Source: Antrihabitans stalactiti (GTDB lineage Bacteria; Actinomycetota; Actinomycetes; Mycobacteriales; Mycobacteriaceae). From it: a DNA stretch of 64,000 nucleotides. The position numbers were made by a program, and so were the translations under genes. Shown here in pieces: positions 38,557 to 56,782 of this stretch. The first letter of the stretch is position 1, and every line of letters starts with the position of its first letter. The stretch is from assembly GCF_012932915.1 (NCBI RefSeq), contig NZ_VCQU01000011.1, forward strand, positions 1 to 64,000. Reading direction: 5' to 3'. The notes below the pieces were generated by a model. That model ran no database searches. It had not been told where the DNA came from and was given only the letters and a program-made list of their open reading frames with translations.

Positions 38557-38646
38557 GACGACCTCCTTTCCGGTGGTTGGTTGAAATTGTTTTAAGATGT
38601 GTAATGAGTTAATTGTTTGCGCGTCGCGCTGTTTCCGCCGCTCTCG

Positions 38647-39033
38647 CTATTCGTCTTCACCGTTCCTCGGCCCCAGATTTCCTGACATACGATGCGATTC
38701 CTCGATACGTCGGACGTAGGCATCAATTTCGGCTATTTGCTCGTCGCTCAGGGATTGATGTTTGGTGCGGAAGTAGACCGGCAAGCTCGGCAGCGGTTGG
38801 CCCGTCGTCTCGAAGTGGGCGGCGTAAAAATCCTCGACATCGACCTCCAAAGCGTCGGCGAGTTTCTGCATCGTCGCAGGTGTGAGGTTGGAAATGGCAC
38901 CCGTCTCGATCCGTCGTAGGTTGCCGCGGTCGATGCCGCTAACCTGCGCGAGCGCGTACAGCGATAGGCCACGCTCATCGCGCAGACGCTTCAGTAGCTC
39001 GGATAGTGGTGTGGGTGCCAGATTCTGTTCCAT
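38647..39033 (-). CDS. XRE-family transcriptional regulator
   Basis: A 128-residue repressor-like protein. The HTH is at residues 9-65 (LKRLRDERGLSLYALAQVSGIDRGNLRRIETG, then TMQKLADALEVDVEDF). The C-terminal half contains PVYFRTKHQSLSDEQIAEIDAYVRRI. I chose ATG at 39033 with AAAGGAA upstream. It is probably the ImmR-type repressor of element genes and the target of the adjacent peptidase. The neighbouring GGAATTG half-sites are likely its operators. Confidence 0.88.
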   Translation of the reverse strand: MEQNLAPTPLSELLKRLRDERGLSLYALAQVSGIDRGNLRRIETGAISNLTPATMQKLADALEVDVEDFYAAHFETTGQPLPSLPVYFRTKHQSLSDEQIAEIDAYVRRIEESHRMSGNLGPRNGEDE

Positions 39034-39038
39034 ATTCT

Positions 39039-39104
39039 CAATTCCTTTGTCTCTATTTTCGCAGGAATTGCGAGTCGGGGCAATATCTACCACGTGTGGA
39101 ATTG
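39039..39104. promoter_or_regulatory. Three half-site operator region upstream of XRE gene
   Basis: CAATTCC at 39039-39045 and GGAATTG at 39064-39070 and 39098-39104 make one inverted and one direct pair in the 94-bp gap before the XRE gene. This is a typical autorepressor layout. Confidence 0.45.
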
Positions 39105-39127
39105 ACAACGGCATTTGTTTCAGGGGG

Positions 39128-39736
39128 TCACGAGGTGAACAAATGAACGCCGCTGCTCGTTTCCGCCACATACCACTCTGTCCGGAACACGTCTTCCAGC
39201 AGCGCGTAGTCGATCTTCAGAAACGGGGCGATGCCAAGTTTGTCGCCAAGCCTGGTGACCTCGTCTGTCCATCCCATGCTGTCGGCCCATTCTTCAACCA
39301 GCTCACGCATAGACTGGTACGTGCCGTAGTAGCAGTCTTCGAAGCCGTCGGTGGTCGCCTGATCGGTACCGACCCATTCGGCATAGGTGGCGAAGGCATC
39401 GCCATGTTGCTCGATACCAACAGCGAGTCGGTGGATAGTCTCGATGGTGTCGTACTCCTGGAGCCGCAACGATTCGAAGCCGACATAGTCGTGGACTGCG
39501 AACTCTTCGGCTCCTTCGTCCGTCGAGACACGCAGCATGCGTTCGATCTGGTCGTTGATCTCGTCAACCTCAAGCGTCGGATCGATCCAGACGCCATGCA
39601 GCCGCCCGTCGTTGTAATCGCTCAGCGACGCCACATAGATGTGTGGCCTCGTCGCAGGCGAAGCCTCCTGCTCCGTACTGGCTTCGGTCGTGTCAGTGTT
39701 GTTTTGAACGTTGTCGTGTGATTGTTTCCTCTCCAT
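39128..39736 (-). CDS. ardA: ArdA-like antirestriction protein
   Basis: A 202-residue acidic protein. After a 30-residue Thr/Glu-rich leader it begins PHIYVASLSDYNDGRLHGVWID, the ArdA opening motif. The remainder is rich in Asp/Glu, as expected of a DNA mimic that blocks type I restriction during transfer. It lies 14 bp downstream of the methyltransferase start, so both would act early after entry into a new host. Confidence 0.9.
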   Translation of the reverse strand: MERKQSHDNVQNNTDTTEASTEQEASPATRPHIYVASLSDYNDGRLHGVWIDPTLEVDEINDQIERMLRVSTDEGAEEFAVHDYVGFESLRLQEYDTIETIHRLAVGIEQHGDAFATYAEWVGTDQATTDGFEDCYYGTYQSMRELVEEWADSMGWTDEVTRLGDKLGIAPFLKIDYALLEDVFRTEWYVAETSSGVHLFTS

Positions 39737-39750
39737 CGTCGTGGTCTCCT

Positions 39751-40761
39751 TTACCGTTGTTGTTCAGTTGTATTGCGTGACTGAGTAATTCGTTCATCGG
39801 CTTGCCTGGCATAGTCCGCGTTCAATTCGATGCCGAGCCATTCGCGCCGGTGTTTCTCGGCGGCGATGGCGGTCGTGCCAGACCCCACAAATGGATCGAG
39901 CACCAGCCCCGGCCGCCACGGTTCTGCTCGGCATCGACACTGCGGGCGCAGCACGCCGGTACGGAGCAACCGGTCATCGTGCCGTCGGTTGGCTCGCCGC
40001 CACGAAGCGCCACAGGCGGTGCAGACCCGTTCGGGGCACCCAGCCAATACGCAGCGCTCAGCCAGCCCGAGTGGATAGACGGCATAATGTGCCCCGCGAT
40101 ACGCAGCGGTCGGAATCGTCCAGACATCACCGGGTGACTTGCCGAGCGGATGCGAATTGGCGCCGTGTCGTTTCATTCGATCGAGCCCGCGATTGCGATC
40201 GACGCTGCCACCAGCTGGTGTCACGCTGTTCGGCGGATAGCCAGCAATCTTCTTGCGCGGTTGGGCACCGCGCATGCTGGCCGCCGGAACCCGAATGGTG
40301 TCAAGATCGAAGTAGTAGCGGGGGCCGCGCGTCAGGAGCAACAGGATCTCGTGGCTGTTACTCAGCCGGTCGGTGACGCTTGACGGCATGGCGTTGGGTT
40401 TGGCCCAGATGGCGTGGTTACGAATCAGCCAGCCGTCGTCGGCCAGCGCGACAGCTAGTTTCTGCGGGCCGAGCAGCAGCCCCTTCTTCGGTGCTCCCTG
40501 CGAGAGGTGCGACGAATAGCTGTCGCCAACGTTCAACCAAAATGTGCCTGTGGGCGTCAAGATGCGCGCCAATTCGGCAGCGACGAGCCGCAGATGCTTC
40601 ACCCAGTCGTCAACACTGGTCTCACTTCCGAGCTGGCCATCGCGGCCGTAGTCACGCAACCCGAAGTAGGGCGGGCTGGTGACGATGCAGTCGACTGAAT
40701 CGTCGGGCAGCTCAGCGAGCCGATCAAGGGCATCGCCCACGAGAATCGTGTTGGTTTTCAT
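39751..40761 (-). CDS. Site-specific DNA methyltransferase (beta class, SPPY type)
   Basis: A 336-residue amino-methyltransferase. Catalytic motif IV TSPPYFGLRDYG is at about residue 30, and the SAM motif LDPFVGSGTTAIAAEK is at about residue 295, the beta-class order. A Cys-rich insert CPERVCTACGASWRR...CRC may bind zinc and help target recognition. SPPY enzymes are mostly m4C or m6A formers. No endonuclease is adjacent, so it is probably a protective orphan methylase of the element. It overlaps the replication-relaxation gene (ATGA). Confidence 0.9.
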   Translation of the reverse strand: MKTNTILVGDALDRLAELPDDSVDCIVTSPPYFGLRDYGRDGQLGSETSVDDWVKHLRLVAAELARILTPTGTFWLNVGDSYSSHLSQGAPKKGLLLGPQKLAVALADDGWLIRNHAIWAKPNAMPSSVTDRLSNSHEILLLLTRGPRYYFDLDTIRVPAASMRGAQPRKKIAGYPPNSVTPAGGSVDRNRGLDRMKRHGANSHPLGKSPGDVWTIPTAAYRGAHYAVYPLGLAERCVLAGCPERVCTACGASWRRANRRHDDRLLRTGVLRPQCRCRAEPWRPGLVLDPFVGSGTTAIAAEKHRREWLGIELNADYARQADERITQSRNTTEQQR

Positions 40762-41585
40762 GATTCACCTCCTTTCAGTGTTGGTGCTTCGTTTGATTGC
40801 CCGAGCAGTAAGCCGATGGAATTTTCAGCGGTCGTGACGGCGAACAGCGGCCGAACTTCCACGGGCAGGTGCCGGATCACTCCTGCGATCCGTTCGGCCC
40901 GAGCCGTATTCGGCACGACCCACAACACGCGCGGGAAGGTGCCGATTCGTCGCTGCTCGCTACCCGAGCGCCAGTAACTGACGTAGCTACGGCATTTGGC
41001 GCGGATCGTGGTCAGGCTTTCGGTTGCCATGTCGCACTCGATGAAGTGGACATAGCCGCGCTCACCGTCACCCGTCTGGACGAAAGCGTCTGGCCGAATC
41101 GTGGATGTGCCGCCGTGCGCCGCTGGATAGCGTCGCCAGCAAGCCGGTTCGGCGTCGAAGCTGACCAGGCGGAGTGACGTTTCATTCGCGTCACGGGTGG
41201 TTTCGACCAATCCGACGTACAACTCGCTGACCGCCAGCACGTGCGCGACGAAGCGCTCGCCAGGTTCACTGGCTACCCGACGACGTGGTGAACCGTCGAT
41301 CTGGGCCAACGCAGTGAAGCCACGGCTCGTCAGGCGGTAGACGAAACCATCGGAACCGGCACGGATTCCGCCTACTCGGCGATCGAGTCGCCCGACGAGT
41401 CCTCTGATATACAAGCGCTGCAGCACCGAGCGGGCCCGGCGCGCTCTGGTAGCGGGTGACCCATCCGAAACGAGCAGGCGTTGCAGCTGCCCGCCATTCA
41501 GTAGCCGCAGCACAGACAGCAACCGAAGCAGTTCGACATCCCGTTCGCTGAGCCCGCCGACCCCCGTGCGGCTCCGGGCGCTCAT
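40758..41585 (-). CDS. Replication-relaxation family protein
   Basis: A 275-residue protein of the actinobacterial/Firmicute replication-relaxation family found on conjugative elements. The N-terminal winged helix is LSERDVELLRLLSVLRLLNGGQLQRLL, and a C-terminal region resembles PD-(D/E)XK folds (DAFVQTGDGERGYVHFIECDMATES, with Asp and Glu-x-Asp). It probably helps initiate element replication or transfer. It lies upstream of and overlaps the methyltransferase. Confidence 0.85.
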   Translation of the reverse strand: MSARSRTGVGGLSERDVELLRLLSVLRLLNGGQLQRLLVSDGSPATRARRARSVLQRLYIRGLVGRLDRRVGGIRAGSDGFVYRLTSRGFTALAQIDGSPRRRVASEPGERFVAHVLAVSELYVGLVETTRDANETSLRLVSFDAEPACWRRYPAAHGGTSTIRPDAFVQTGDGERGYVHFIECDMATESLTTIRAKCRSYVSYWRSGSEQRRIGTFPRVLWVVPNTARAERIAGVIRHLPVEVRPLFAVTTAENSIGLLLGQSNEAPTLKGGES

Positions 41586-41706
41586 GGCAAACCTCCATGA
41601 GAAGCGCAGAGATTCGTCAGCACTTTCCGGTCATCCACGCACGTGGCCAGGCCTTTTGACTCGACATGATCGGTAGGCCGACCGGTAGGGCTAGTTGGCC
41701 GGCGGT

Positions 41707-43827
41707 TCATGGCCTGCCTCCACCTGGCAGCCGGCCTATGACTCCTGTATCCGGCGGTTGCTCCCAGCGGCGCAGTAGTTCGGCATCGATGGCAGCGCCA
41801 CTTCGGCCAAACCGTGCTTGGCTGGCTCGCCGAACATCACTGGCCTTGTTGATTGCTGCGGGCAGTGGTTGCGTTACCAGATGAAACGCGCCGTCATGGT
41901 CGTGCATCGCGGTCACGGCCTCGTATTGCTGCAGTCTCAACAGGTCGTCGGCAGTGACCGCGAGGCTGCCGAGCTGCGCTGCGAGCGAAGTCGCGTCATC
42001 CCCACTTGGTTTGAACACCACCCGCGAGCGCATGTTGGCGCTGACTGCCGCCCTCATAGCCGGAGTCAGTTGCGGCAGATGTTGATGGGCAGCCGTAACC
42101 CCAATTCCCATGCCGCGAGAGGTTGCGAGTACGTCGGCAAAATCCAAGCTGCCCGCGAACAACTGCCACTCGTCTACGATCACCGATGCCAATCGCCGCT
42201 GAGATTCCGGAATCCGCGTCCGCCGCTGGATGGCTGCCCACAGCTGCCCGAGGAGCAGTGCCCCGAGCACACCCGATGCCTCTGGCCCGATGACGCCACG
42301 GTTCAAACTGACAAGCACGATGCCTCGGTTGTTCAGAACGTCGTCCCAGCTCCAGCCGGGATCGCTTTGGCCGAGTAGGCGGCGGATGCTGGCCCGAGAC
42401 GTGAAGCCGCGCAGCTTGTTCATGATTGGTGCGACCACCTGGGCGCGTTCGCCGTCAGACAGGTTGTCGAACCACGCCAGCCAGGGTCCGAGCACGAGCG
42501 GGTCGTCAATCCTCGCAGCCACCCGCCTACGGAAGACCGGATTGGCGAGTATCGCTGGCACGTCGACGAGGGTGCCGTCGGGGATGCGGCTGGCAATGAG
42601 CAGTGCGTGGAGCAGCACGTCAGTCGACCGTGGACCGAGTGCCGCGCCGTGCAGATCACGAAACAGCCCAACAATTTCGTCAGCTCGCCGCTCGATGGTG
42701 TCCAGATCACCGGCCAAGGGGTTGGTGCCGATCGGCCGGTTGGTTTCACCTGCCTCGACAACCACGACGCGCCCTCGAGCATCATCCTCGAGTCGCTCGA
42801 GGACCGCGTCGCAGAGATCGCCCTTCGGCTCGATCAGCACCAGTGCCCGACCAGCTCGAATGTCGTCTAATGCCATATGCGCCAAGAGATTCGATTTGCC
42901 AGAGCCAGTCGGCCCGATGGTGTGGGTATGACGGCTGATCGCTGATGCTGGCAGCACGACCGTTTGGCCGAGCGTGGCCGGATGCTTGCTGACACCGAGC
43001 ACACGACCGCTCGCAGACGGAAGCGGCGGCACGTTGCCGATCGGGACGATGCGGCCGGTGGCGTCATCAAGCGGTAGTGCGAGCAGGACCGCCAGCTCTT
43101 TGGCGCTGACAATCCCCGTCCAGCGCTTCCTTGCCACAAGATTGAGCGCCTGGGCACTTCGTATCGATGGTCGGTCGATCCGGAGGTGCCCGTGGGCACT
43201 GTCGGCCAGCTGCAGCGCACCTCGCAATCCGCTTAGTGAAGCAGCATTACTCGTGGTGCCGATACGTCCCCGAACGGCGAACAACGGTTCACTGGCCTTC
43301 TGACGCCAGACGCTGTGGTCGGTGGCCGACGGTTCATGAATCGGTCGGAAGCCAAGCTGTTCGCTGAGGGTGAATTCGGTTGGCGCTGTTCGTCTTCCCT
43401 GCGATGGGCCGAGTAGCCACTGCAATACCAGGGCGTCGTCTTCGGGGCAGCTGGCGAGTGCCGCGCCCACGGCGGTGCTGACCTGACCGGCAACATCGGT
43501 GCGCAGGCTGGCGGCCAGGCTAGTCAGGCGAATGTCGGCAGCCGTACTGACGGTTGGTCGACCAGCGGGGTTGAACGGCCGAAACAACAGGCCAGGTAGT
43601 GCTGCGGCTAGTTGCCGCACAAATGGTTCACCGAGCGGTGACTCCACCGCCAGCAGATACCGCGTGGTGCCGGTGATTTGCCACTGTTCGATCACGACCA
43701 ACGGCGTTCGTCGCATCATCCCGATCACCGGCCGCGAGGCCATCGGACGGACGAATGCCGTGACGCTTTCCAGCGTCAAACCGCGCGGGATGAACAGCTC
43801 CCACCATTGAAGAGCGCGGTCAGGCAT
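41707..43827 (-). CDS. VirD4/TraM-recognition-type conjugative ATPase
   Basis: A 706-residue type IV coupling-like ATPase. Walker A is TIGPTGSGKSNLLAHM near residue 310, and the Walker B region is SVIVDEWQLFAG near residue 560, followed by the MGIGVTAAHQHL motif typical of TraD/VirD4. There is no obvious transmembrane start, so it resembles soluble coupling ATPases of actinobacterial mobilizable elements. ATG at 43827 lies inside the end of the upstream small gene. It should bring DNA to a host-borne transfer channel. Confidence 0.88.
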   Translation of the reverse strand: MPDRALQWWELFIPRGLTLESVTAFVRPMASRPVIGMMRRTPLVVIEQWQITGTTRYLLAVESPLGEPFVRQLAAALPGLLFRPFNPAGRPTVSTAADIRLTSLAASLRTDVAGQVSTAVGAALASCPEDDALVLQWLLGPSQGRRTAPTEFTLSEQLGFRPIHEPSATDHSVWRQKASEPLFAVRGRIGTTSNAASLSGLRGALQLADSAHGHLRIDRPSIRSAQALNLVARKRWTGIVSAKELAVLLALPLDDATGRIVPIGNVPPLPSASGRVLGVSKHPATLGQTVVLPASAISRHTHTIGPTGSGKSNLLAHMALDDIRAGRALVLIEPKGDLCDAVLERLEDDARGRVVVVEAGETNRPIGTNPLAGDLDTIERRADEIVGLFRDLHGAALGPRSTDVLLHALLIASRIPDGTLVDVPAILANPVFRRRVAARIDDPLVLGPWLAWFDNLSDGERAQVVAPIMNKLRGFTSRASIRRLLGQSDPGWSWDDVLNNRGIVLVSLNRGVIGPEASGVLGALLLGQLWAAIQRRTRIPESQRRLASVIVDEWQLFAGSLDFADVLATSRGMGIGVTAAHQHLPQLTPAMRAAVSANMRSRVVFKPSGDDATSLAAQLGSLAVTADDLLRLQQYEAVTAMHDHDGAFHLVTQPLPAAINKASDVRRASQARFGRSGAAIDAELLRRWEQPPDTGVIGRLPGGGRP

Positions 43828-44029
43828 GTTCTGCCTCGCGTGACGACATCTGTTCGTTCGATTTTGCTGGCTGCCGTTCCTGATCGAGCTGTTGCCGGGC
43901 GAGCGCAATACAGGCCCGAGCGATCTTGCGCAGGGCTGGGTGATCGTTTTCGTCACGGGTGACGCCGACGATTCGCACTGCCTCGTCTGCTCGCTTCTTG
44001 GTTAGCTCTGCTCGTTGCTTGTGGGTCAT
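43820..44029 (-). CDS. Small hypothetical element protein
   Basis: A 69-residue basic, helical protein, MTHKQRAELTKKRADEAVRI at the start, with an excellent ribosome site (AGGAGGGAG). It overlaps the start of the coupling ATPase by 8 bp and is probably its accessory. No family is recognised. Confidence 0.65.
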   Translation of the reverse strand: MTHKQRAELTKKRADEAVRIVGVTRDENDHPALRKIARACIALARQQLDQERQPAKSNEQMSSREAEHA

Positions 44030-45689: not shown

Positions 45690-46016
45690 TCAACGTGTGC
45701 GAAAGGCCTCGTCCAGTTCATCTACTCGATCCTGTTCAGCATTGAGCGCTGCACCAAGGCCGTACTTCCAGCAGTTGAATGCGAATTGCTCCGGATCAAC
45801 TAGCGACCTCCCGAGCGTCCGCTCTGCAGCACTCCGCTCACGAGCTAGGAACAATTCGATCGCGGACGCGATCAGGTGGGGGTTGTCAGGAGTGAGACGA
45901 AGGACGTCAAGGTGGTCATTGGCCGTTGTCCTGCAACCTTTCGTGTCCTCGTCCGGGTAAGATGTCAACATGTCGCGCTCTGCAAACGTGTTCAACTCGA
46001 TCGGCGAAATATCCAT
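45690..46016 (-). CDS. Hypothetical protein beside the ATP-grasp cluster
   Basis: A 108-residue acidic protein (MDISPIELNTFAERDMLTS at the start; PEQFAFNCWKYGLGAALNAEQDRVDELDEAF near the end). AAGGAG lies 6 bases before the ATG. It is divergent from the cargo operon at 46052, so it could be its regulator or immunity factor, but no DNA-binding motif is visible. Confidence 0.6.
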   Translation of the reverse strand: MDISPIELNTFAERDMLTSYPDEDTKGCRTTANDHLDVLRLTPDNPHLIASAIELFLARERSAAERTLGRSLVDPEQFAFNCWKYGLGAALNAEQDRVDELDEAFRTR

Positions 46017-46051
46017 TGGGAGCTCCTTCTGGGGCGGTGGCAGTGAACTAC

Positions 46052-47233
46052 ATGTCGAATTTGACGAAATTCTCGGAAATGCAATACGCCCACCCGTGGA
46101 AGCTTCCTTCCGACAGATTTCCCAAAAATTTCCCTGGTAGATCGCGATCCGTGAGCACCTCCTCCAGTTCGGATTCGGCGCTGCTGAGCCTGTTGCGTGA
46201 GGGCTGTTCAGACTGGAAAGTACTAGAGTCGGAACCGATCAAGTCATGGGCGCGAGAGCGATTTGCACACTTGCGAGATATCCCCGAGAGTGCACTACCT
46301 GGATCCATTCGACTTGCGATCCTAAATGCTTGCGAGAAGCACCTCGTTTCGAACAAGTACGTGGACGACGAAGTAGTCTCGATTCTTGTCGGCAAGAAGG
46401 AACGTGCTTTAGCGCGGAGATACGTGACGGCGGAGGCTATTCGGGAAACATTGATGGAGCTAAAAGCCATCGGCGAACGCCGAGTGAATCAAATCCTGGC
46501 AACGGAAATCGCGCCGAAGATACTTCGCGCAATCGAATTGCAAGGCGCAGGTTCTCCAAACTTGAAGTCGGAATGGCTTGACTGTGAAGTAAGTCTTTCT
46601 GCAAGGCCACATCCGTCACACGCGGAACGCTATTATCTACGCGTCGAACTCGAATTCTATTGTTGTTCGTGTGACATAGTTCTTGGCGTCACCGACAATG
46701 AAGGTATTGCCGATATGTTATGCGCGAAGTATCCAACCATCACCGAGGTTCTTGTACCTTCCCGAGGCATGACAAGCCGCGCCCATATTCAGTGCTACGA
46801 CCCAACCGACAACGCTCGCCTCACCGATCTAGTTCCGATTGCTCTTTCCGACACTGATGTACTCAAAATTATCGGGCCAAGTGCCCCGACGAGCGGGGTT
46901 CGCTATACAAAGTTCGAGTCACCCGACTACACGGGAAATCTTCAATATCGTTTAGTATTTGATCATGAATTGTCGATAACGACTCATTGCTTTTGGAGCG
47001 CGCCACGTCGACTTCATCTGCGCTCAGTAGAGCTTGATTTCGCCGGTTTTCCCAACGCTGATCGCTATGAGTTCGATATTATCCCGAGGATGGGAGTGTT
47101 GTCAGTCTTCGGTAGCCATGCGTTGAAGCGCTGGTCGATCATCGGACCGTGCTGGATTGAGTCTGGCCAGGGCGTCTACGTGAATTGGTCAAAGATTGGA
47201 GATCGGATTGAATCGGCCGATAATGTTGATTAG
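46052..47233 (+). CDS. Unknown protein, first gene of ATP-grasp/C39 cluster
   Basis: A 393-residue protein with no family I recognise. The N-terminal half is helical and charged (TAEAIRETLMELKAIGERRVNQILATEI). The C-terminal half is strand-rich with a cysteine cluster EFYCCSCD and many aromatic residues. Codon use is visibly more AT-rich than in flanking element genes, which points to separate acquisition. It overlaps the ATP-grasp gene by 11 bp, so the two are coupled. GTG at 46043 is an alternative start. Confidence 0.65.
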   Translation: MSNLTKFSEMQYAHPWKLPSDRFPKNFPGRSRSVSTSSSSDSALLSLLREGCSDWKVLESEPIKSWARERFAHLRDIPESALPGSIRLAILNACEKHLVSNKYVDDEVVSILVGKKERALARRYVTAEAIRETLMELKAIGERRVNQILATEIAPKILRAIELQGAGSPNLKSEWLDCEVSLSARPHPSHAERYYLRVELEFYCCSCDIVLGVTDNEGIADMLCAKYPTITEVLVPSRGMTSRAHIQCYDPTDNARLTDLVPIALSDTDVLKIIGPSAPTSGVRYTKFESPDYTGNLQYRLVFDHELSITTHCFWSAPRRLHLRSVELDFAGFPNADRYEFDIIPRMGVLSVFGSHALKRWSIIGPCWIESGQGVYVNWSKIGDRIESADNVD

Positions 47234-48167
47234 TAGACATAACGATCCTCACGCTCAGTTGATCACAAAACGCGCAGCGTCGTTGGGCATTGAGATTCGT
47301 CACCTGCGCCTCGGATTAATCGATAAGTATTACACGGTGAGGAGTGCCAACTATGGTCTAACGATTGACTTTGATAACTTTGAATATTCCGCACAATCCG
47401 CCGAACAATCAGAAGTTCTGTTTCTTCCGTTTGATGTTAGCAATCCTCCGTGGGTCAACCCACAGGGCAGCGATTTCACAACGAGAGAGTGGAATACGAC
47501 GATTGAATGCGCCTTATTACAATGGTGGGATGCATGCGACAGGAATTGGCTTATTGCGCCTGGTGCACAAGTCCTCCAGGACAGGAAGATCTATTTATTA
47601 AACCTTGCCGGACAAATAGAACCAGAACTGACGATACCTGCGACACACCTTGGCACCAGGTTTCCTGGTCTGGATATTGACAATCGATTCGTCGGAAAAG
47701 CTTTGAATGCCTGGCAACAGGTTCATAAGGGACGCTTCTTCAATACAACCGAATTGAGTGCTGGCCAAATTCTTGCGTTAAGCCAAGGCGGAAACAACAC
47801 TCCTATCATGATCCAGAGATACGTTCCGCACAAATGCGAACTGCGCATCTATTTCGCCCGAGGAAAGTTCGCGTGCGTGAAGGTGGACAGCGGAACTTCT
47901 GAATTATCTGACTTCAGGCTACTAACTACAGATACGGGGAGTGCCGAATTTTACCAAGAATGCCTGCCACGTGATATTATGAAAGGGTTGATAGAACTTT
48001 GCCGCAGGATCAATGTCTTCTATTGCTGTTTCGATTTCATCGTCGATGAATCCAGTCAGCTTTGGCTAACGGATATTAACCCAACAGGTAGCTGGCGTTA
48101 CCTATCGAGAGACTTCGACATTGATGTAACTTCGTTTATTCTGGACAACTTAACAGGGGATAGGTAA
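47223..48167 (+). CDS. MvdD/RimK-like ATP-grasp ligase
   Basis: A 314-residue ATP-grasp enzyme of the peptide-modifying/peptide-ligase type. It has a pre-ATP-grasp N-terminal domain, a KAL segment (FVGKALNAWQQVHKG), IMIQRYVPHKCELRIYFARGKFACVKV, and the metal/ATP motif LWLTDINPTGSWRYL near the C-terminus, with D-x-N-P-x-G as in MvdC/MvdD. In graspetide pathways such enzymes form ester or amide links between side chains. I chose ATG at 47223; TTG at 47196 is the alternative. Confidence 0.82.
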   Translation: MLISRHNDPHAQLITKRAASLGIEIRHLRLGLIDKYYTVRSANYGLTIDFDNFEYSAQSAEQSEVLFLPFDVSNPPWVNPQGSDFTTREWNTTIECALLQWWDACDRNWLIAPGAQVLQDRKIYLLNLAGQIEPELTIPATHLGTRFPGLDIDNRFVGKALNAWQQVHKGRFFNTTELSAGQILALSQGGNNTPIMIQRYVPHKCELRIYFARGKFACVKVDSGTSELSDFRLLTTDTGSAEFYQECLPRDIMKGLIELCRRINVFYCCFDFIVDESSQLWLTDINPTGSWRYLSRDFDIDVTSFILDNLTGDR

Positions 48168-48174
48168 TCAGGCC

Positions 48175-48927
48175 ATGGAAATAATATTCACAGTTCCACG
48201 ACGCATTCAAAATAGCGACGACGCGCTCCACTGTGTCCAGGCCGCGTTTTCGATGACTGTGGAGTCGCTTACCAACGCACGGGTCGATAATGACCTAGCG
48301 GAGAAACTGACTGGTTTCACCGCCGGCGTAGAGACCTGGCCCTATCGCATGCTTGCATGGTTCGCAGAGAACGGGTTTGAGGTCGAACATATTGATGCCC
48401 TCGATCCCGTCGCGTTCATCGAGAGTCCACGTACGGAGTTGGAACGGTGCAACCTCGACTCCGAAACGATTGATTACTACTTTCAGATCACTGATTTCGA
48501 AGCGGAGGGTGTTGCGATTCGTCGCTGCATTAAGGCGGGAGTTAAGTTCTCAATACGGATTCCAGAGAAGCTGGACTTGACCCGGGGGTTAAAGAGCGGG
48601 TGGTTGCCCGTAGTGGCGCTTGACGCTGCTGCCCTAACGCAAGAGGTACGCGACGGATTTCAGGGCCACACCGTTCTGATAACAGGGTTTGATGCTGAAA
48701 ACGATCGATTTCTAGTTCAGGATTCAGGCCCGCCTGCTCGATGGGACTGGGAAGTAACCGGTGATCAAATTGTGAAATCCATGCGCTCGATCGCAGAGAC
48801 GTCAGGTACGATCACGCTCGTAAGACGCCCGGCCGCAAGGCTGAAGGGAGGTGCAACCGTGGAGCTAAGTGAACAGCTCGCCTCTGAAGCGAGCGGTCAG
48901 GGACTTGACCCACAGCCGTCCGGCTAA
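48175..48927 (+). CDS. C39-like/papain-fold cysteine protein
   Basis: A 250-residue protein with the layout of C39/BtrH-type cysteine enzymes. The nucleophile candidate is Cys20 (DALHCVQAAFSM), His165 lies in FQGHTVLITGFD, and Asp183 in FLVQDSGPP. C39 domains remove leader peptides, while BtrH-type members transfer acyl groups. It starts 7 bp after the ATP-grasp gene. Its last 22 codons follow GGGAGG and an in-frame GTG at 48859, so a short peptide could also be made from there. Confidence 0.72.
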   Translation: MEIIFTVPRRIQNSDDALHCVQAAFSMTVESLTNARVDNDLAEKLTGFTAGVETWPYRMLAWFAENGFEVEHIDALDPVAFIESPRTELERCNLDSETIDYYFQITDFEAEGVAIRRCIKAGVKFSIRIPEKLDLTRGLKSGWLPVVALDAAALTQEVRDGFQGHTVLITGFDAENDRFLVQDSGPPARWDWEVTGDQIVKSMRSIAETSGTITLVRRPAARLKGGATVELSEQLASEASGQGLDPQPSG

Positions 48928-48947
48928 CGAAGGCTTTGATGGATGGT

Positions 48948-48992
48948 TGTAGGTACCCGAGTTCAGTCGAGCGACAGACTTGTGTACCTACA
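48948..48992. terminator. Convergent inverted repeat, possible shared terminator
   Basis: TGTAGGTAC (48948-48956) and GTACCTACA (48984-48992) are exact complements with a 27-nt loop. They lie between the C39-like gene (ends 48927) and the convergent small-peptide gene, whose TAG stop is inside the right arm. It may terminate both or act as a protein site. Confidence 0.45.
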
Positions 48993-49161
48993 CCCTCTTG
49001 CTTGACTCCTTGGAGACTTGGTCTGGATAGAACTCACCCGACAGCGGAATCGGACCACCTGAGTTCGGCTCGGTGTACATGCCAGAGTAGTCCGACGTTT
49101 CATTCTCCGTCGTTTTCTCGCCCTCGAAATGTGCGCTGCTATCTTGCTCAGCTCCGGACAC
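48988..49161 (-). CDS. 57-residue acidic Ser/Thr-rich peptide, candidate RiPP precursor
   Basis: A small minus-strand gene convergent with the ATP-grasp/C39 operon. GTG at 49161 is preceded by AGGAG at 7 bases. The product begins MSGAEQDSSAHFEGEK and its second half contains SDYSGMYTEPNSGGPIPLSG followed by EFYPDQVSKESSKRV. It is rich in Glu/Asp, Ser/Thr and Lys, the residues joined by graspetide ligases, and has no Cys or long hydrophobic stretch. I infer a substrate for the adjacent ligase; opposite orientation is unusual, so this is a hypothesis. The 57 codons are uninterrupted. Confidence 0.55.
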   Translation of the reverse strand: MSGAEQDSSAHFEGEKTTENETSDYSGMYTEPNSGGPIPLSGEFYPDQVSKESSKRV

Positions 49162-49352: not shown

Positions 49353-50498
49353 ATGAAGAACACGTCACTCCTAACTCGATTTTACCGACTAAAGCTGATA
49401 CTTAGTGGCGTTATTCTCATCGTTCTGGGAATGCTCTCCTCCGTAACAGCCGATTGGCTCGAATCAACGCAAATAGCGCACGCTATCGTCGCGCTCGCCC
49501 GAGGTCTTTCTGACGTCTTACTCGTGACCGGCGCAATAGGTATCGCGATAGATTTCTTCACCGGCCGGGATAAGGACGCCGCCGACACCGAGCGAACTAG
49601 AACGGTGCTGAAGGAGCTGACGCCAGATTTCGCTAATGCGGTCATCAAGGGATTCCGGGTGAACAAGGAAGACTTGCAGCGAGTTGCCTCGCCGGAGTTG
49701 CTCGATGACATCGCCACGAACGTGCTGTCACTTCGCCTCGGCGATGATCAGTTTGCGCAAGAGATCTATTCCGACATACGCGACCAAGCCATCCATACGC
49801 CAGAGCGTTGGCATGACGTGAAGGTCAGCGTTCGGCTCTCTACTGCAGTAGAGAGGAGCACCGTAGGTGCTCCTCGGTTCGATGTCTTAGTTGAATGGGA
49901 ATACACGACCACGCTCAGTCATCCGACGGCTCGCTTCACGTGCGTCTCAGACTGGGATGAATTTCACGAACTGCTCTCCGATGTTCCCGCCACCTCGGTG
50001 TGGCTGATGCCGCAACGTCCAGGTTTTGACGCATCTGACCGCGCGGCCTACGAATTAGTGACATTCAGCATCGACGGCGAACAGCGCAAGATTCGACGAA
50101 CTGAACGGCAAGGCGCGCAGACGTACAGCGTCGACATCGGTGAAGAGGTCGTCCGCGCTGGCCGACCCGTTCGCGTGCGCTACGCCTTTCGCACGATCAC
50201 TGATCCCGCCAACCACCGCCTGTTCCTGACCGCCGCGCAACCTGCTCGTGACGTCTCCCTTGCTATTGACTACTCGGCAACGGACATATCGCGGCTGAGT
50301 GTGATCGACCTCGTCCCCAGCGCACGTCGCCCGTACGTGAGTCAGCTCCCCGCCGGCACAACCGGCAGGGAGCTGACGATGGAGCTTTCCGGCTGGATTC
50401 AAGCCGGTACTGGTTTCACCTTTGTGTGGACCCTCGACTCCGAAGAGACGACAGCGCATCCAGGCACACGCCCAACATCCGCCAGCCCCGCTGCGTAA
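49353..50498 (+). CDS. 2TM protein with beta-rich cytoplasmic domain
   Basis: A 381-residue protein with two N-terminal helices (about residues 12-32 and 45-68), a short charged helical linker, and a long predicted strand-rich domain (DVKVSVRLSTAVERSTVGAPRFDVLVEWEY; RAGRPVRVRYAFRTITDP). This 2TM-plus-beta layout resembles effector or sensor proteins in CBASS-like defence, but I see no diagnostic motif. It lies between the two cargo blocks and could belong to either. There is no clear ribosome site. Confidence 0.6.
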   Translation: MKNTSLLTRFYRLKLILSGVILIVLGMLSSVTADWLESTQIAHAIVALARGLSDVLLVTGAIGIAIDFFTGRDKDAADTERTRTVLKELTPDFANAVIKGFRVNKEDLQRVASPELLDDIATNVLSLRLGDDQFAQEIYSDIRDQAIHTPERWHDVKVSVRLSTAVERSTVGAPRFDVLVEWEYTTTLSHPTARFTCVSDWDEFHELLSDVPATSVWLMPQRPGFDASDRAAYELVTFSIDGEQRKIRRTERQGAQTYSVDIGEEVVRAGRPVRVRYAFRTITDPANHRLFLTAAQPARDVSLAIDYSATDISRLSVIDLVPSARRPYVSQLPAGTTGRELTMELSGWIQAGTGFTFVWTLDSEETTAHPGTRPTSASPAA

Positions 50499-50645: not shown

Positions 50646-50858
50646 ATGGAAGGTGACCTGCAACGCGCTGTTGGCCGAAATCTGCGCCGGTACCGGCTGG
50701 AACGTGGCCTGAGCCAGGAAGCTTTCGCCGACCTGGTTGGTGTCCATCGGACGTACATGGGCGGCGTCGAGCGTGGCGAGCGAAACTTGACGCTGCGCAG
50801 CCTTGAGAAAATCGCCGACATCATCGGCATCGATCCGCTGGCACTACTTTCCGAGTAG
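50646..50858 (+). CDS. Controller (C) protein of restriction-modification system, XRE family
   Basis: A 70-residue single-HTH protein (GRNLRRYRLERGLSQEAFADLVGVHRTYMGGVERGERNLTLRSLEKIADIIG). Size and sequence match C proteins that time expression of restriction genes after entry into a new cell. A 36-bp palindrome sits directly upstream and a DNA methyltransferase follows after 61 bp. A general XRE regulator is the alternative. Confidence 0.85.
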   Translation: MEGDLQRAVGRNLRRYRLERGLSQEAFADLVGVHRTYMGGVERGERNLTLRSLEKIADIIGIDPLALLSE

Positions 50859-50919
50859 TGATCGAGTCAACGGCGCACCGCATCGGTGCTCGACGACCGT
50901 GCAAATTCCCGCTATACAT

Positions 50920-52176
50920 ATGCATGACATCGGGATCACCGAACCTGTCGGTACCCGCACATACGCTCGAATCGAACAAGCATTCGCCCGCGGGGTCGAG
51001 CTTGAAATCGAAGGGACAACGACGACGATGAGTCGCAATACCCAACGCGCAGCCGCGAAACCGCGGCAAGCAGATGCGGAGCCTGACGCACCCAGGCCTA
51101 TTCTCGGCACGGCATCGGTTGGTCAACTATCCGACTGGGAAACGAACCTGGTCGACCCGACACTCAACTTTGTGAGCGGTGATGCACGCCAGACCGGACT
51201 GCCAGACAACTCGGTCGACTTGATCGTTACATCCCCGCCGTATTGGAACAAGCGTGACTACGGGCATGCAGATCAGATCGGCCTAGAGCCGACCTCCGGC
51301 GCCTACATTGACGCAATTCTTGAGTGCCTCAATGAGTGGAGGCGCGTCCTCCGTCCTCATGGATCTGTATTCCTGAACGTCGGTGACACCTACTACAACA
51401 AGTCTTTGCTTGGCATCCCGGGCCGCATCGAGTGGCGGGCTGTCGAGGAGGGGTGGCTCGTGCGTAATCGCATCATTTGGGCGAAAGACTCCGGCATGCC
51501 CGAGCCCGCGAAGAACCGTCTCGCCAACCGTCACGAGTACGTCATCCACCTCACGTACAAGCCGGACTACTACTACGACCTGGTTGGCTACTCAGAGGCG
51601 ATCGGCAACGGGGCCAACCCGGGCGATGTGTGGACGATCAACCCGGAGCGGAACATGGGGCAGCATCTCGCGCCGTTCCCTCGCGAACTGGTGCGCCGCG
51701 CGATCATGCTGGCCGCGCCGACACAGATTTGCGCCACGTGCAATGTGCCCCGTCGCCGTGTAGTGGAGCGCACCGCTGAACTGAACGCATCGCGCCCGCA
51801 GGCGAAACGGGCGATGGAGCTTGCCAAGCTGCACAGGTTAACCCCCGAGCACATCCGAGCGATCCAAGCGTTCGGCGTGTCAGACGTTGGCAAGGCCACT
51901 AAGTTCCAGAATGGCACTGGCCGCAACAGCGCTGAGGTCCAGCGCCTCGCGAAGGAAGCCAAGGATGCACTCGGCGGCTACTTCCGTGAGTTCACCTTTG
52001 CCAACAAGCGCACGGTGGGCTGGACCGACTGCGGACACGGGACGCCCGCCCGCGGAGTTGTGCTCGACCCATTCGCAGGAACCGGCACGACCCTCAAAGT
52101 TGCGATCGAGGAAGGGCGCGACGCGATCGGCGTTGACCTTGTCCCACTAATGAATCAGCCCGAAGTCGGTATCTGA
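50920..52176 (+). CDS. DNA methyltransferase, beta class, probable m4C type
   Basis: A 418-residue amino-methyltransferase. Motif IV VTSPPYWNKRDYG is at about residue 100, and the SAM motif LDPFAGTGTTLKVAIEEGRDAIGVDL is at the C-terminus. SPPYW is most often found in N4-cytosine enzymes. The middle has CATCNVPRRR and an inserted helical region that may read the target. ATG at 50920 is chosen because the reading continues with protein-like sequence; ATG at 51028 is possible. The 3' end overlaps the McrC-like gene by 22 bp. Confidence 0.87.
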   Translation: MHDIGITEPVGTRTYARIEQAFARGVELEIEGTTTTMSRNTQRAAAKPRQADAEPDAPRPILGTASVGQLSDWETNLVDPTLNFVSGDARQTGLPDNSVDLIVTSPPYWNKRDYGHADQIGLEPTSGAYIDAILECLNEWRRVLRPHGSVFLNVGDTYYNKSLLGIPGRIEWRAVEEGWLVRNRIIWAKDSGMPEPAKNRLANRHEYVIHLTYKPDYYYDLVGYSEAIGNGANPGDVWTINPERNMGQHLAPFPRELVRRAIMLAAPTQICATCNVPRRRVVERTAELNASRPQAKRAMELAKLHRLTPEHIRAIQAFGVSDVGKATKFQNGTGRNSAEVQRLAKEAKDALGGYFREFTFANKRTVGWTDCGHGTPARGVVLDPFAGTGTTLKVAIEEGRDAIGVDLVPLMNQPEVGI

Positions 52177-53555
52177 ATCGGGAGCCCGGCCAGGCTATAG
52201 ATCGTGTTTGCCATTACAGCCAGTGACTCGTCAATGTGTTCTTCAGAGGAGAGGTCGAGCCGATAGTCGTACACGTCGACTGATCGAACACGGCCAACGT
52301 AGACGAGGCCCTTTGTGCCCTTGATCCAAGGGTGGATGAGCAGGGTCAGTGGCCGCCCGTACCGAAGAGCGTAGGTGACGGCCTGCTCGACCTCGCCGCG
52401 CTCGGGCAACACGTCATCGGCATCAGCGTGTTTGCCATGGGCAGTGTTCTTCACCTCTGCGATCAATAGGAAGGTGCCGTCGGCCGCGCGGAGAACTATG
52501 TCGGGCTGTGCCTTGCCCGGGTCTCGTGTGGCAAGAGCCTGTAGCGGTGTCCCGAGCGGCGCAGGCAAGGGATCAGGCACGTCGTACAGGTTTACCTTCC
52601 CGTCGGTGTTGCCATCCAGCACGTCGACAGGCCAGCCGTGTCTCGCCGCGTGTTTCGAGAGGGTGACGCGTACGAAGTTCTCGAACAACTTGTTCGTGTC
52701 GATCAACAGCGAGCCCAGCTTCACGTCGGCGCCACCGAGGTCGAGCGCAATGCCGACGCCGCGCAAGATCAAGACAGAGAGGTCGAGTATGGGTCGGTAG
52801 TAGGCGCGAGGGTCGGGCAATGGCGTCAGGCCGAGAACCTGCGGATCATCGAGGAAACGGTAATCGGGGTCATGCGCCACCTCTTCGAATGCCAAGAGCT
52901 GGCCAGCCAGACGCGCGATCCTCCCTCGGTCGCCCTTGCGCGGCTTGTCCTTCGCCTTCACCAAGTGGGCGTGAACAGCCTCCATCGCGGCCTTGACACA
53001 CCGGTTGAGCGACGTGTCGACCGTACGCTCGAACCATGAGTAGGCGGCCTTGTTCGGTATGCCGCGCGCGCCGAAGCGCTGCATTGTCCGCTTGAAATCA
53101 ATACGGCCATGCGGGAAGTGGCCTTCGCTCGCTCGTCGCTCGTACTCGCGTTGCAAGCCCGAATCGACCAATTCGTCCGCGTAGTCGAGGAGTGCGTCGG
53201 TGTAAAGATCCATCGCCCAGTCGTCGGCGGTACCACGGCCTGAATACTCCCGAAACGCCGAAAGTGCCAGCACCGTATGGCCAGTCTCGATCACCATGCG
53301 GGTGAGGTTGGCGATGGGAACCCGTGGCTTCACCCGCACGACGACGTGCTCGTTGAGCGGGATTACGCCCACGTACGAGGTGGCCTGCAGACGAAGCACG
53401 CCTTTACGGAAGTTGGCGCGCAGAATGTCACGCCCATCGATCTCCGAGTTGAGGACGATCTGATGGGCGTCGTTCAGCCACAGTGCCGTGTCGATCTCGA
53501 TGTGATCGTACTCGGCGCACTCCACCACTTCGATGTCGTTCGGCAGGTGAGTCAC
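52155..53555 (-). CDS. McrC-like restriction nuclease subunit
   Basis: A 466-residue McrC-family protein. The N-terminal part is the McrB-binding/stimulating region. The C-terminal PD-(D/E)XK nuclease motif is QPDIVLRAADGTFLLIAEVKNTAHGKHA (Asp, then Glu-x-Lys), with KLFENFVRVTLSKHA before it, typical of McrC/LlaJI R subunits. GTG at 53555 overlaps the McrB-like stop (GTGA). It should cut DNA when activated by the ATPase. Confidence 0.9.
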   Translation of the reverse strand: MTHLPNDIEVVECAEYDHIEIDTALWLNDAHQIVLNSEIDGRDILRANFRKGVLRLQATSYVGVIPLNEHVVVRVKPRVPIANLTRMVIETGHTVLALSAFREYSGRGTADDWAMDLYTDALLDYADELVDSGLQREYERRASEGHFPHGRIDFKRTMQRFGARGIPNKAAYSWFERTVDTSLNRCVKAAMEAVHAHLVKAKDKPRKGDRGRIARLAGQLLAFEEVAHDPDYRFLDDPQVLGLTPLPDPRAYYRPILDLSVLILRGVGIALDLGGADVKLGSLLIDTNKLFENFVRVTLSKHAARHGWPVDVLDGNTDGKVNLYDVPDPLPAPLGTPLQALATRDPGKAQPDIVLRAADGTFLLIAEVKNTAHGKHADADDVLPERGEVEQAVTYALRYGRPLTLLIHPWIKGTKGLVYVGRVRSVDVYDYRLDLSSEEHIDESLAVMANTIYSLAGLPIQIPTSG

Positions 53556-54532
53556 TGGCCCGCCTCGGGGTCCGGCGGCGGCTCGCGACCACTTGCGCCC
53601 ATAGGCGTCCCTTCGGGGGCCGGAACCACAAAGGTCCGCTTCCATGCGGCTTCGACGTCCGCCAGTGTGTTCACATCGCGCCGGAATGCCCGCTGGACCA
53701 GATACTTGAGTTGATACTCCCAAATGTCCATCAGTGAGGCCGTGTCAGAAGCATCGGCAAAGTACGCATGTCCAACGGCAGCGGCCGGGTTCTTGCGGGC
53801 GTGCTCGTTGACCCGGCGGAACCAGCGAAGCACGCCAGCCGCAAGGGCTTCGTCCATCTCGTTGTCGACAAGGATGCCTTCCAGCAGTTCCGCGCTCGGG
53901 TCCATCGATATTTTGGCGAAGCGGCGCTCGAACGCGGCGTCGACCTCGTCGACACCCCTGTCGAAGGGGTTCATAGTTGCGAGGATGATCAAGTTGGTCG
54001 GGACCACGAGTTCGTCGCCATTGGCGATTCTGAACGGAAGCTCTCGCTTGCTCCGTTCGACATAGGTAAGAGCCTCGCCGAATACGCGCCCCACGTCGGC
54101 GCGGGATAGTTCGTCTATGACAAGCACGTACGCGTTGCCGGGGTCATCCTTGGCGTCATGTGCCAGACTAAGGAACGGGCCCTTCTTGATGCCGAAGCCA
54201 TCGTTCTCAGGGGAGAAGCCCAGCATAAAGTCCTCATACTGGTAACTGGCGTGGAATTGGACGAATCGGCAGCGAGCGTTGTCACCACCTGTCAAATGTT
54301 GCGCGGCGGCCGCTGCGTAGAACGACTTCGATGTTCCTGGTGGGCCGGACAGAAGGACACCGCCGAACTGATTCGCCAGTCTGATGATCTCCTGAACGCG
54401 CGGGTCGTTGGCTGCGATTTCAGGTGCATCGGGAGCCGACGAGGCATGGCCAGTAGCGGCCTTTGCTTTGATCCCGATACCGAGGTCGTCGGCTGTCAAA
54501 GTCCGGACCTCGGGGATGAGTTCCTCAAACAT
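53552..54532 (-). CDS. McrB-like AAA+ NTPase
   Basis: A 326-residue AAA+ protein. Walker A is LLSGPPGTSKSFYAAAAAQHL (about residue 60), Walker B YVLVIDELSRADVGRVFGE, and the sensor region ILATMNPFDRGVDEVDAAFERRFAKI. McrB proteins form hexamers that translocate DNA and activate McrC. There is no N-terminal modified-base reader domain here, so recognition must come from the partner encoded just upstream. It overlaps that gene by 8 bp. Confidence 0.9.
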   Translation of the reverse strand: MFEELIPEVRTLTADDLGIGIKAKAATGHASSAPDAPEIAANDPRVQEIIRLANQFGGVLLSGPPGTSKSFYAAAAAQHLTGGDNARCRFVQFHASYQYEDFMLGFSPENDGFGIKKGPFLSLAHDAKDDPGNAYVLVIDELSRADVGRVFGEALTYVERSKRELPFRIANGDELVVPTNLIILATMNPFDRGVDEVDAAFERRFAKISMDPSAELLEGILVDNEMDEALAAGVLRWFRRVNEHARKNPAAAVGHAYFADASDTASLMDIWEYQLKYLVQRAFRRDVNTLADVEAAWKRTFVVPAPEGTPMGASGREPPPDPEAGQ

Positions 54533-55148
54533 TGGCAGTCCAAGAGCCGGATGTCGGACCGGCGGCCACACTTGGCTCGGCGAACCAGACGAAGTCGATG
54601 TCAGTAGGCACTTCAGTCGTGAACAGCGTCACGAACTCGTTCTCGGTGCCACCCGGATAGGCGAACTTTGTTCTGAACGCCGCAATCAGGTCATTGGGAT
54701 CAGGATTACCGGACAACACGAAACCATCGTTTCGGAGAAAGTAGGCCCCCATCGCGAGTGCGGACACGGGCTTGTCGTAGAGCATCTGCGTGCGTGCGAG
54801 TTCTACGTGATTATCCGGCCATGCGTAGGCGCTCTCGTCCGCCCCTAGCCACCCGCCCCCTTGCTGGCGACGAATGGAGCCGGGCGACCAGCTGCCGGAG
54901 ATGTTCTCAGCTCTCCAGAAGGTGGGTAGCGGCCTACCCGTGCGCTTGCCGCGGTCGATCATTGGAAAGTAGTACGGCTTTGTCGGGTTGCCCGGCATCT
55001 GAATCAGCTTCATCAACTCGGCCGACTTTGCCGACGCATCATGCAGCTTGCCAGCCCGCTGTTGCATCCGGAGATACAGGTACATCACGAAAGTGGGATG
55101 GATACGTTCCGCGCCAAGTGTGTCGATTCCCCAGCGCACAGCATTCAT
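54525..55148 (-). CDS. Unknown partner of McrB/McrC-like genes
   Basis: A 207-residue protein, first of the trio. I recognise no domain: it starts MNAVRWGIDTLGAERIHPTF, has several Trp/Tyr residues (GSWSPGSIRRQQGGGWLGADE), and ends near AEPSVAAGPTSGSWTANV. Since the McrB-like protein has no target-reading domain, this protein is a good candidate for specificity. BsuMI restriction also needs three genes of this kind. ATG at 55148 is chosen; an ATG at 55196 is the alternative. Confidence 0.72.
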   Translation of the reverse strand: MNAVRWGIDTLGAERIHPTFVMYLYLRMQQRAGKLHDASAKSAELMKLIQMPGNPTKPYYFPMIDRGKRTGRPLPTFWRAENISGSWSPGSIRRQQGGGWLGADESAYAWPDNHVELARTQMLYDKPVSALAMGAYFLRNDGFVLSGNPDPNDLIAAFRTKFAYPGGTENEFVTLFTTEVPTDIDFVWFAEPSVAAGPTSGSWTANV

Positions 55149-55610: not shown

Positions 55611-55853
55611 TCACACTAGCTGTGTTTCATTCTCGGACGCCGCGATGTCTTCTTCGGAAAAGAGCGGTTGCCGGGGGAACCCTATGCTGTGAAGCTCATT
55701 GCCGCTCTCGTCAAGGAAGGTGTGCACGGCCCAGTCGCCGACGATTCTCACCACCTTTTCTGATGTCCTTGCAACTTCAATTCGCCGAACTTCCGAGGAT
55801 GAGTCCGCTGCTGCAGCCTCTCTAGATGACGGGTCAATTTCATGATTTACCAT
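55611..55853 (-). CDS. Small hypothetical partner of 2TM-GAF-like protein
   Basis: An 80-residue acidic protein with SEKVVRIVGDWAVHTFLDESGNELHSIGFPRQPL in the middle. Its ATG overlaps the stop of the upstream gene (TAATG), so the two are co-translated. No family is recognised. The base composition is AT-richer than that of the chromosome. Confidence 0.6.
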   Translation of the reverse strand: MVNHEIDPSSREAAAADSSSEVRRIEVARTSEKVVRIVGDWAVHTFLDESGNELHSIGFPRQPLFSEEDIAASENETQLV

Positions 55854-56782
55854 TAGGTCTCCTTACTTTTGTCTGATGATCTAATATTAACATTTTTATT
55901 TCGCGCTGGTGGAGAATTATTTGCGGCATGTTCAGAATCACTTTCGAATGCACGCGCTATTGCGTCGGCGACCGACCAGCCAAGGGGTACATGGATTTCC
56001 GCTGTGAATGTGTCGGGCGGGTCGCTATCGATACACAGAAATGCCGCGATCGGCGCGAAGTTATCGTCCCCGTTATTCTCGACTGTACGAGTTAGGATCG
56101 GCCAAACGACCGTGGATTTATACGTGCGATTCGGGCTCGAATTCCGGTAACCAGGAAACAGATCGACATTATTGCTGAACCAAAATTTCTTACCCTCGCG
56201 GTACAATTCGTTGAAGTCGGTATTCTGATCGATGTAATGCAGCTCTGACTCGGCTCCGCCTACATGCCTATTGCTTCGGACCACAGCCCTGACACGTGGT
56301 CGCGCGGTCTCCGCGTCCACAATCTCCTTTACGCAAACGCGACAGTCAACACCCAGGGCGTCCGTAAATGAACGCGCCATGTCGTTACATGCCGTTCGCA
56401 TGAACCTCAGCGTTTCCCGCTTGCTCAAAGGTGTACGTAGTTCAGCAATTTCGTCATTCAACGTGTGAGCAACCTCAAGCACTAGCATTCCGGCTCGTTG
56501 AGCGTTTCTAAGTGATTCAAAATCTTTTCGAATATTGTCGACTGACTCTACGAGCGCTTGGTTACTACGCGAGAAGACCCGAACCATATAGGCAGTCAAT
56601 GCGACGTATGTCAAAACGATGAAGGCGGTAAGAAAGGCGGACTCAAGGGGCGTGACGCGCCCTTTGACAGTCGCGATCGTGGCGAAAATTGTCACGCACG
56701 TACCGACGATGCCGAAAACCACACCTGTCCAGTTAGCAATCGGTCCGGGACTCACGGCGCGAGCTTTGAAGGACGGTTTCAT
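55853..56782 (-). CDS. 2TM protein with GAF-like sensor domain
   Basis: A 309-residue protein with two helices (about residues 18-38 and 48-68), then a coiled coil (VESVDNIRKDFESLRNAQRAG). The C-terminal region resembles a GAF domain (TYKSTVVWPILTR... IAAFLCIDSDPPDTFTAEIH). Many integrated elements carry such membrane sensors as defence or stress genes. ATG at 56782 is the only good start. The gene pair is among the most AT-rich in the window. Confidence 0.65.
   Translation of the reverse strand: MKPSFKARAVSPGPIANWTGVVFGIVGTCVTIFATIATVKGRVTPLESAFLTAFIVLTYVALTAYMVRVFSRSNQALVESVDNIRKDFESLRNAQRAGMLVLEVAHTLNDEIAELRTPLSKRETLRFMRTACNDMARSFTDALGVDCRVCVKEIVDAETARPRVRAVVRSNRHVGGAESELHYIDQNTDFNELYREGKKFWFSNNVDLFPGYRNSSPNRTYKSTVVWPILTRTVENNGDDNFAPIAAFLCIDSDPPDTFTAEIHVPLGWSVADAIARAFESDSEHAANNSPPARNKNVNIRSSDKSKET

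Follow-up and report, generated by a model that had tools for sequence, protein, structure and literature searches.

The 64,000-nucleotide stretch analysed here, called the window below, comprises positions 1 to 64,000 of the forward strand of contig NZ_VCQU01000011.1 of Antrihabitans stalactiti (assembly GCF_012932915.1), and it carries a compact cassette of three plus-strand genes that encode, in this order, the protein A393, an ATP-grasp ligase and a C39-like cysteine protein (Table 1). The A393 and ligase genes overlap by 11 nucleotides and a gap of 7 nucleotides precedes the C39-like gene, as an original prediction made from the letters of the sequence had described. That prediction also took the block for AT-rich cargo of a mobile element, which agrees with our measurements: the guanine plus cytosine (GC) content is 51% in the A393 gene, 46% in the ligase gene and 55% in the C39-like gene, against 61-63% in the integrase, TraG-like, methyltransferase and McrC genes, and the cassette is carried on a mobile element. 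With the downstream TM381 gene included, the four plus-strand genes range from 46 to 58%. The A393, ligase and C39-like genes are real, rare and linked. An open reading frame (ORF) of 108 residues on the minus strand at 45690-46016, within the span given by the original prediction, has a strong Shine-Dalgarno (SD) sequence of its own and is transcribed away from A393.

Table 1. Features of the cassette and its surroundings in the window (TM, transmembrane; HTH, helix-turn-helix).
Feature	Position	Strand	Basis
A393, 393-residue protein of no recognised family	46052-47233	+	ORF call; hydropathy, no predicted TM stretch
ATP-grasp ligase (P0002), graspetide-ligase family, 314 residues	47223-48167	+	profile matches; G961 homologue
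C39-like papain-superfamily cysteine protein, 250 residues, Cys20/His165/Asp183	48175-48927	+	Pfam, alignment, homologues
Candidate 22-residue acidic peptide ending in QPSG, in-frame 3' end of the C39-like gene	48859-48927	+	internal GTG after AAGGGAGG
57-residue acidic Ser/Thr-rich ORF, GTG start, good SD	48988-49161	-	ORF and SD inspection
TM381, two N-terminal hydrophobic stretches and a soluble region	49353-50498	+	hydropathy
Mobile backbone: serine recombinase, IrrE-like, HTH, ArdA, methyltransferase, Replic_Relax, TrwB/TraG-like	35882-43956	-	profile scans
Serine recombinase	35882-37903	-	adjoins tRNA-Ser (35871-35958)
HTH regulator	50646-50858	+	profile scans
Type II DNA methyltransferase	50803-52176	+	profile scans
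McrC-like	52155-53723	-	profile scan
AAA protein, taken for McrB-like	53552-54571	-	profile scan

Judged by its sequence, the ligase is a member of the graspetide-ligase (MvdC/MvdD-like) family. It matches the NCBIfam models MvdC (E 1.5e-17), SAV_5884 (3.3e-14), MvdD (4.2e-8) and grasp-with-spasm (2.8e-7), each below the curated cut-off, and the Pfam scan gave no family match, R2K included. A profile of the ligase and its homologue in G961, a genome of the same class and another family (profile A3), matches the solved graspetide ligases 5ig8 (3.6e-14) and 7m4s (6.8e-13), as well as the solved structures 7mgv and 5ig9 and, weakly, 9bou. The D-x-N-P-x-G motif of MvdC/MvdD, which the original prediction had pointed out, is present as DINPTG at residues 284-289, and this motif and ELR align with 7m4s. 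In a tree of 23 rows the window and G961 ligases form a clade with support 99/98. The ligase from a plasmid of Hymenobacter volaticus is placed on a very long branch of this tree and has a weak match to R2K_2 (0.0012, under the cut-off).

Other plasmids gave some observations on ligase loci. On a Rhodococcus plasmid (L161, 3150-7481) a 283-residue protein, an ATP-grasp protein, a radical SAM protein and a hypothetical protein lie in a single run, and this ligase is the sister (89/89) of the window ligase clade, on a long branch. An ORF on a Sinorhizobium plasmid (L163, 3398-3766), directly 5' of an ATP-grasp ligase, has three TKT...(E/G)(S/G)DD units that are similar by eye and looks like a multi-core graspetide precursor. 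According to the annotation, small ORFs, an ATP-grasp gene, a lasso-peptide B2 protein and an asparagine synthase-related gene stand together on a Pedobacter plasmid (L004, 4662-9090).

The C39-like protein just misses the Pfam cut-off for Peptidase_C39_2 (E 1e-4, 23.3 bits against 24) and does not reach that for BtrH_N (E 0.015, 15.9 bits against 29.7). His19, Cys20, His165, Gly185 and Pro187 are among the columns that are invariant in all five aligned sequences (the window's own counted), and the position of Asp183 holds Asp in four of the five and Asn in Hymenobacter, which fits the earlier placing of Cys20, His165 and Asp183 in a C39-like setting. Near the C39-like genes of a second G961 locus and of the genomes G1057 and G1186, Crp-like regulators and a PfkB-like kinase were noticed by eye. 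One of these loci (L142, 6739-10936) holds Crp-like regulators, a stand-alone C39-like gene and a PfkB-like kinase fused to a C39-like domain, in which the catalytic His seems to be absent (the regulators and the kinase again by eye).

The pairing of ligase and C39-like protein recurs in two other lineages. In G961 all three genes recur in unchanged order, with overlaps, also between the ligase and C39-like genes; blastp gives 36% identity for the ligase (E 3e-60) and 49% for the C39-like protein (E 6e-74). A C-terminal A393 fragment at this locus (L141) is 31% identical to A393 over 86 residues (E 1e-12), and the similarity of a separate upstream piece is not significant (E 0.99). As these pieces occupy different frames and nothing there corresponds to the middle of A393, the G961 copy is short or broken. 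The ligase on the Hymenobacter plasmid has diverged very far (blastp E 0.022 against the window ligase), and its gene is followed by a C39-like gene, with an overlap of 1 nucleotide, and then by that of a two-TM protein; the C39-like protein is 24% identical to that of the window (blastp E 9e-8; plasmid-wide tblastn E 5e-3). Because the three kinds of gene occur together on this plasmid too, the pairing looks real. The original prediction had named ligase homologues that lack the C39-like gene as the evidence that would speak against it, and distant ligases do lack it: no C39-like ORF lies beside any of the 16 other ligase loci of the phylum (blastp E 0.05, flanks of about 1.5 kilobases). The sole close relative found, G961, has it.

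The cassette is very rare among the genomes sampled, where the samples behind the family, class, order and phylum counts overlap. Its own genome has a single ligase match, and the ligase family is found in 17 of 396 genomes of the phylum, own counted; in the order of G961 it is matched in six of 35 genomes, of which G961 alone has a close match. A393 was found in one of 298 genomes of the order and the C39-like protein in one of 301 of the family, in both cases the own genome. By profile the C39-like protein is present in five of 394 class genomes (own, G961, G1057, G1186 and weakly G084), in five of 396 of the phylum (own, G743 with E 3.7e-22, and three weak matches) and in three of 13 genomes of the genus of G961. 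The queries A393, TM381 and P0010 were unmatched in the plasmid tblastn, where the Hymenobacter ligase and TM protein matched only themselves. The C39-like query was unmatched in phages, and among viral contigs the queries P0002 (the ligase), A1, P0006 and A3 yielded no confirmed relative; three matches to a DNA pattern in the viral contigs were all judged to be due to chance. The sole scan of a collection of genome contigs used a Cys...His DNA pattern that was ill-chosen, as it required Cys-Val and His-Thr where the G961 homologue has Cys-Ala and His-Met, and none of its 107 stretches matches a two-sequence C39 profile at E 1, including one (L098) with an ORF that has a C39-type motif.

The third member of the cassette, A393, was called undescribed in the original prediction, and it still has no family match above a cut-off in Pfam (no match at all), NCBIfam, PADLOC or PHROGs. 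TM381 (381 residues) and the Hymenobacter TM protein (hymTM, 373 residues) each have two hydrophobic stretches within their first 71 residues, and A393 has none. It is possible that the three share a C-terminal domain. This idea arose from inspection by eye ahead of the profile tests and relies on rank in profile searches, in which the decoys were 121 window ORFs and ORFs from 121 selected loci. With a profile of the A393 and G961 C-termini (p1), hymTM came first after A393 itself (E 0.038) and TM381 second (E 0.96), ahead of the best decoy (E 2.1; n=1556), and when hymTM was added (p2), TM381 came first after the profile's own members (E 0.73; best decoy 1.8). Other profiles disagree: TM381 had rank 14 with p3, A393 rank 6 with p4, hymTM rank 14 with p5, A393 and TM381 ranks 7 and 8 with p6, and hymTM rank 5 with p7. 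In a smaller, earlier profile test (546 sequences) hymTM came first and TM381 was behind two decoys. Shuffled sequences attained the real score in 193 of 400 cases for A393/TM381, seven of 400 for A393/hymTM and four of 400 for TM381/hymTM, and hhalign gave E 0.025 for the A393 profile with hymTM, 0.23 (20 residues) with TM381, and 0.016 for hymTM with A393 and TM381 together, all with probabilities below 3%. Since the pairwise and other profile tests are thus weak or negative, we regard a shared domain as a possibility.

Two peptides were considered as substrates. The 57-residue ORF is preceded by TTAGGAGAAGTC at its GTG, is acidic and Ser/Thr-rich and contains GG, so the small convergent peptide gene of the original prediction exists, but its role as a precursor found no support: in 90 other genomes of the family the matches are at chance level (15 with E up to 1, the best 0.055; four loci inspected), and blastp found none in the G961 locus. 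Having no convincing homologue in either place, it was rejected as a precursor. The other candidate emerged when the surroundings of the three cassettes (window, G961 and Hymenobacter) were scanned for short ORFs that have a strong SD. In G961 a 25-residue ORF (L141, 9054-9131; MSVHDLVAQETSAQQTDSEDGQPVG) overlaps the stop of the C39-like gene out of frame and ends in QPVG, and at the matching place the window C39-like ORF finishes in VELSEQLASEASGQGLDPQPSG, preceded by AAGGGAGGTGCAACC. Aligned from the C-terminus, the two have 7 identities in 20 positions (composition-shuffle P 0.0024), a number reached by six of 22,267 ORF ends scanned, that of G961 counted; P is 0.08 without the last four residues and 0.06 in a gapped local alignment. 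The likeness could reflect a small peptide gene located where the C39-like gene ends, or else an ordinary C-terminal tail that has been frameshifted in G961. Going by these comparisons, we would prefer the 22-residue stretch over the 57-residue peptide as the candidate substrate.

The HTH regulator, the Type II methyltransferase and the McrC/AAA pair form restriction-type cargo that adjoins the cassette (50646-54571). Further downstream, inspection by eye shows stretches of hydrophobic residues near the N-terminus of a minus-strand protein (55853-56782), and no family model matches it above its curated cut-off. Synteny with the same genus picks up again near 58,350 in two genomes, and as one of the genus (G042) has positions 1-146 of the window matched close to 58351, the island may start further left than the tRNA. 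No attachment-site repeat of at least 14 bases was found at the tRNA within the window. On the chromosomal side, a desaturase gene next to the element has its eight best listed matches in the plasmid collection in Tsukamurella, Streptomyces and Nocardia, in keeping with an actinobacterial host. The cassette is unmatched in PHROGs, and no PADLOC family matched A393, the ligase, the C39-like protein or TM381 at E 0.1. The original prediction of a graspetide-like or defence cluster is partly supported, in that a graspetide-family ligase and a C39-like protein lie together on mobile cargo; what speaks for defence is solely the neighbouring genes.

We tentatively favour the view, to which we give slightly less than an even chance, that this is a horizontally carried graspetide-type peptide-modification cassette with a stand-alone C39-like partner. 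The ligase would consume ATP and turn carboxylates of a short, acidic peptide with Ser/Thr residues into ester or amide linkages, and the C39-like enzyme would cleave or transfer the product. A393 could be a dedicated partner, as substrate, carrier or binder, and TM381 may work at the membrane through a C-terminal part related to that of A393; a role in defence or between bacteria is conceivable. Several results weigh against this. No precursor is conserved across the three loci; in Hymenobacter, whose genes may seldom carry a strong SD, the scan that required one gave no small ORF. The 22-residue stretch may be a mere C-terminus of the C39-like protein, with G961 frameshifted, and the C39-like genes of L142-L144 have short in-frame tails. 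The C39-like family occurs without a detected ATP-grasp gene in the second G961 locus, G1057 and G1186 (L142-L144) and in G743 (L156). The G961 cassette may be decaying, given its short or broken A393, and the Hymenobacter ligase, with its E of 0.022 and very long branch, is so divergent that convergence might account for the pairings. The scan of 18 ORFs neighbouring the cassette in the window showed none of the usual graspetide accessories (an ABC transporter with a C39 domain, an O-methyltransferase, SPASM) and no transporter at all. These accessories are described in PMC8939145, as far as its available text goes, as frequent and not obligatory.

An ordinary graspetide cluster, in which the ligase cross-links the 57-residue peptide (leader, GG, core PIPLSGEFYPDQVSKESSKRV), the GG marks the site behind which the C39-like enzyme cuts and TM381 exports or protects, would suit the family of the ligase and the composition, GG and good SD of that peptide. 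The peptide gene is convergent and outside the operon, however, its matches are those described above, and no exporter is among the neighbours scanned, which makes this explanation rather doubtful. We find it similarly doubtful that proteins of the A393/TM381 type are reversibly tagged, with the ligase adding a short peptide or amino acids and the C39-like enzyme trimming or removing the tag. A cysteine enzyme that stands alone, partner proteins that possibly share a C-terminal part and a candidate peptide ending in QPxG in both loci of the class speak for such tagging, and peptide tags in conflicts are proposed for another ATP-grasp clade in the available part of PMC4431377. There are, however, just two peptide sequences, the small-ORF scan saw none in Hymenobacter, and the domain sharing relies on rank while several direct comparisons fail. 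A bolder version, which we consider clearly unlikely, is a ubiquitin-like system. Here the ligase would activate the C-terminal Gly of an acidic QPxG peptide of 22-25 residues and couple the peptide to proteins of the A393/TM381 type, with release or editing of this tag left to the C39-like enzyme and the membrane form serving as a defence effector; the peptide would have originated overlapping with, or fused to, the C39-like gene, and the targets would share the C-terminal domain.

That the genes are unlinked and neighbours by chance on mobile cargo is very unlikely: the C39-like family does occur without the ligase and distant ligases lack a C39-like gene within about 1.5 kilobases, but against this stand the tight spacing in the window, the same order with overlaps in G961 and the 1-nucleotide overlap in Hymenobacter. 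In the BtrJ/BtrH pathway a ligase loads a carrier and a BtrH-type enzyme transfers the acyl group. A similar route here, with the C39-like enzyme passing the acyl group to a small molecule, seems to us the least probable explanation of all; the weak BtrH_N match points to it, but the ligase is of the graspetide type and the scan of 18 neighbour ORFs, which was confined to the window and did not extend to the G961 and Hymenobacter loci, showed no carrier protein. BtrH-type papain folds are mentioned as possible transacylases in the available text of PMC2922099.

Among the matches listed in our literature search, no title or abstract opening describes the cassette. According to the consulted portion of a paper of 2022 (PMC8939145), it is not known which enzyme cleaves the leader of graspetides, and there are ligase loci that have peptidases but no precursor; since a leader-cleaving protease for class I microviridins was reported in 2026 (PMC13039773, likewise available in part), that gap is partly closed. 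What the window adds is a graspetide-type ligase tied to a stand-alone C39-like enzyme and to a protein that matches nothing in the databases, a gene order shared by two families of one class, with a looser form of the ligase/C39-like association on a Bacteroidota plasmid. As the cassette is compact, with three genes and a defined candidate peptide, it makes precursor-less ligase loci testable.

Compared with known systems, the window ligase has the ExR and DxNPxG ATP-grasp motifs in common with the MvdC/MvdD, AMdnB, CdnC and SAV_5884 ligases, while its NCBIfam scores are far under the cut-offs, and unlike known graspetide clusters the window has no conserved precursor that we could find and no transporter or methyltransferase among the scanned neighbours. 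The R2K-clade ATP-grasps, in what is available of PMC4431377, are proposed protein-peptide ligases in conflicts, whereas the window ligase has no R2K match. Peptidase_C39_2, C39-like and BtrH_N proteins have Cys, His and Asp (or Asn) at positions that match the window protein, which differs in being stand-alone, with no fusion to an ABC transporter, and in a conserved G-(P/L)-P that follows the Asp. In branches 7 and 8 of the graspetide family, according to the available text of PMC8939145, ligases are linked to peptidases and have no recognisable precursor. These peptidases are named there only as several unrelated families. The likeness to the window is that in both cases a ligase is tied to a peptidase-like gene and the precursor is not evident.

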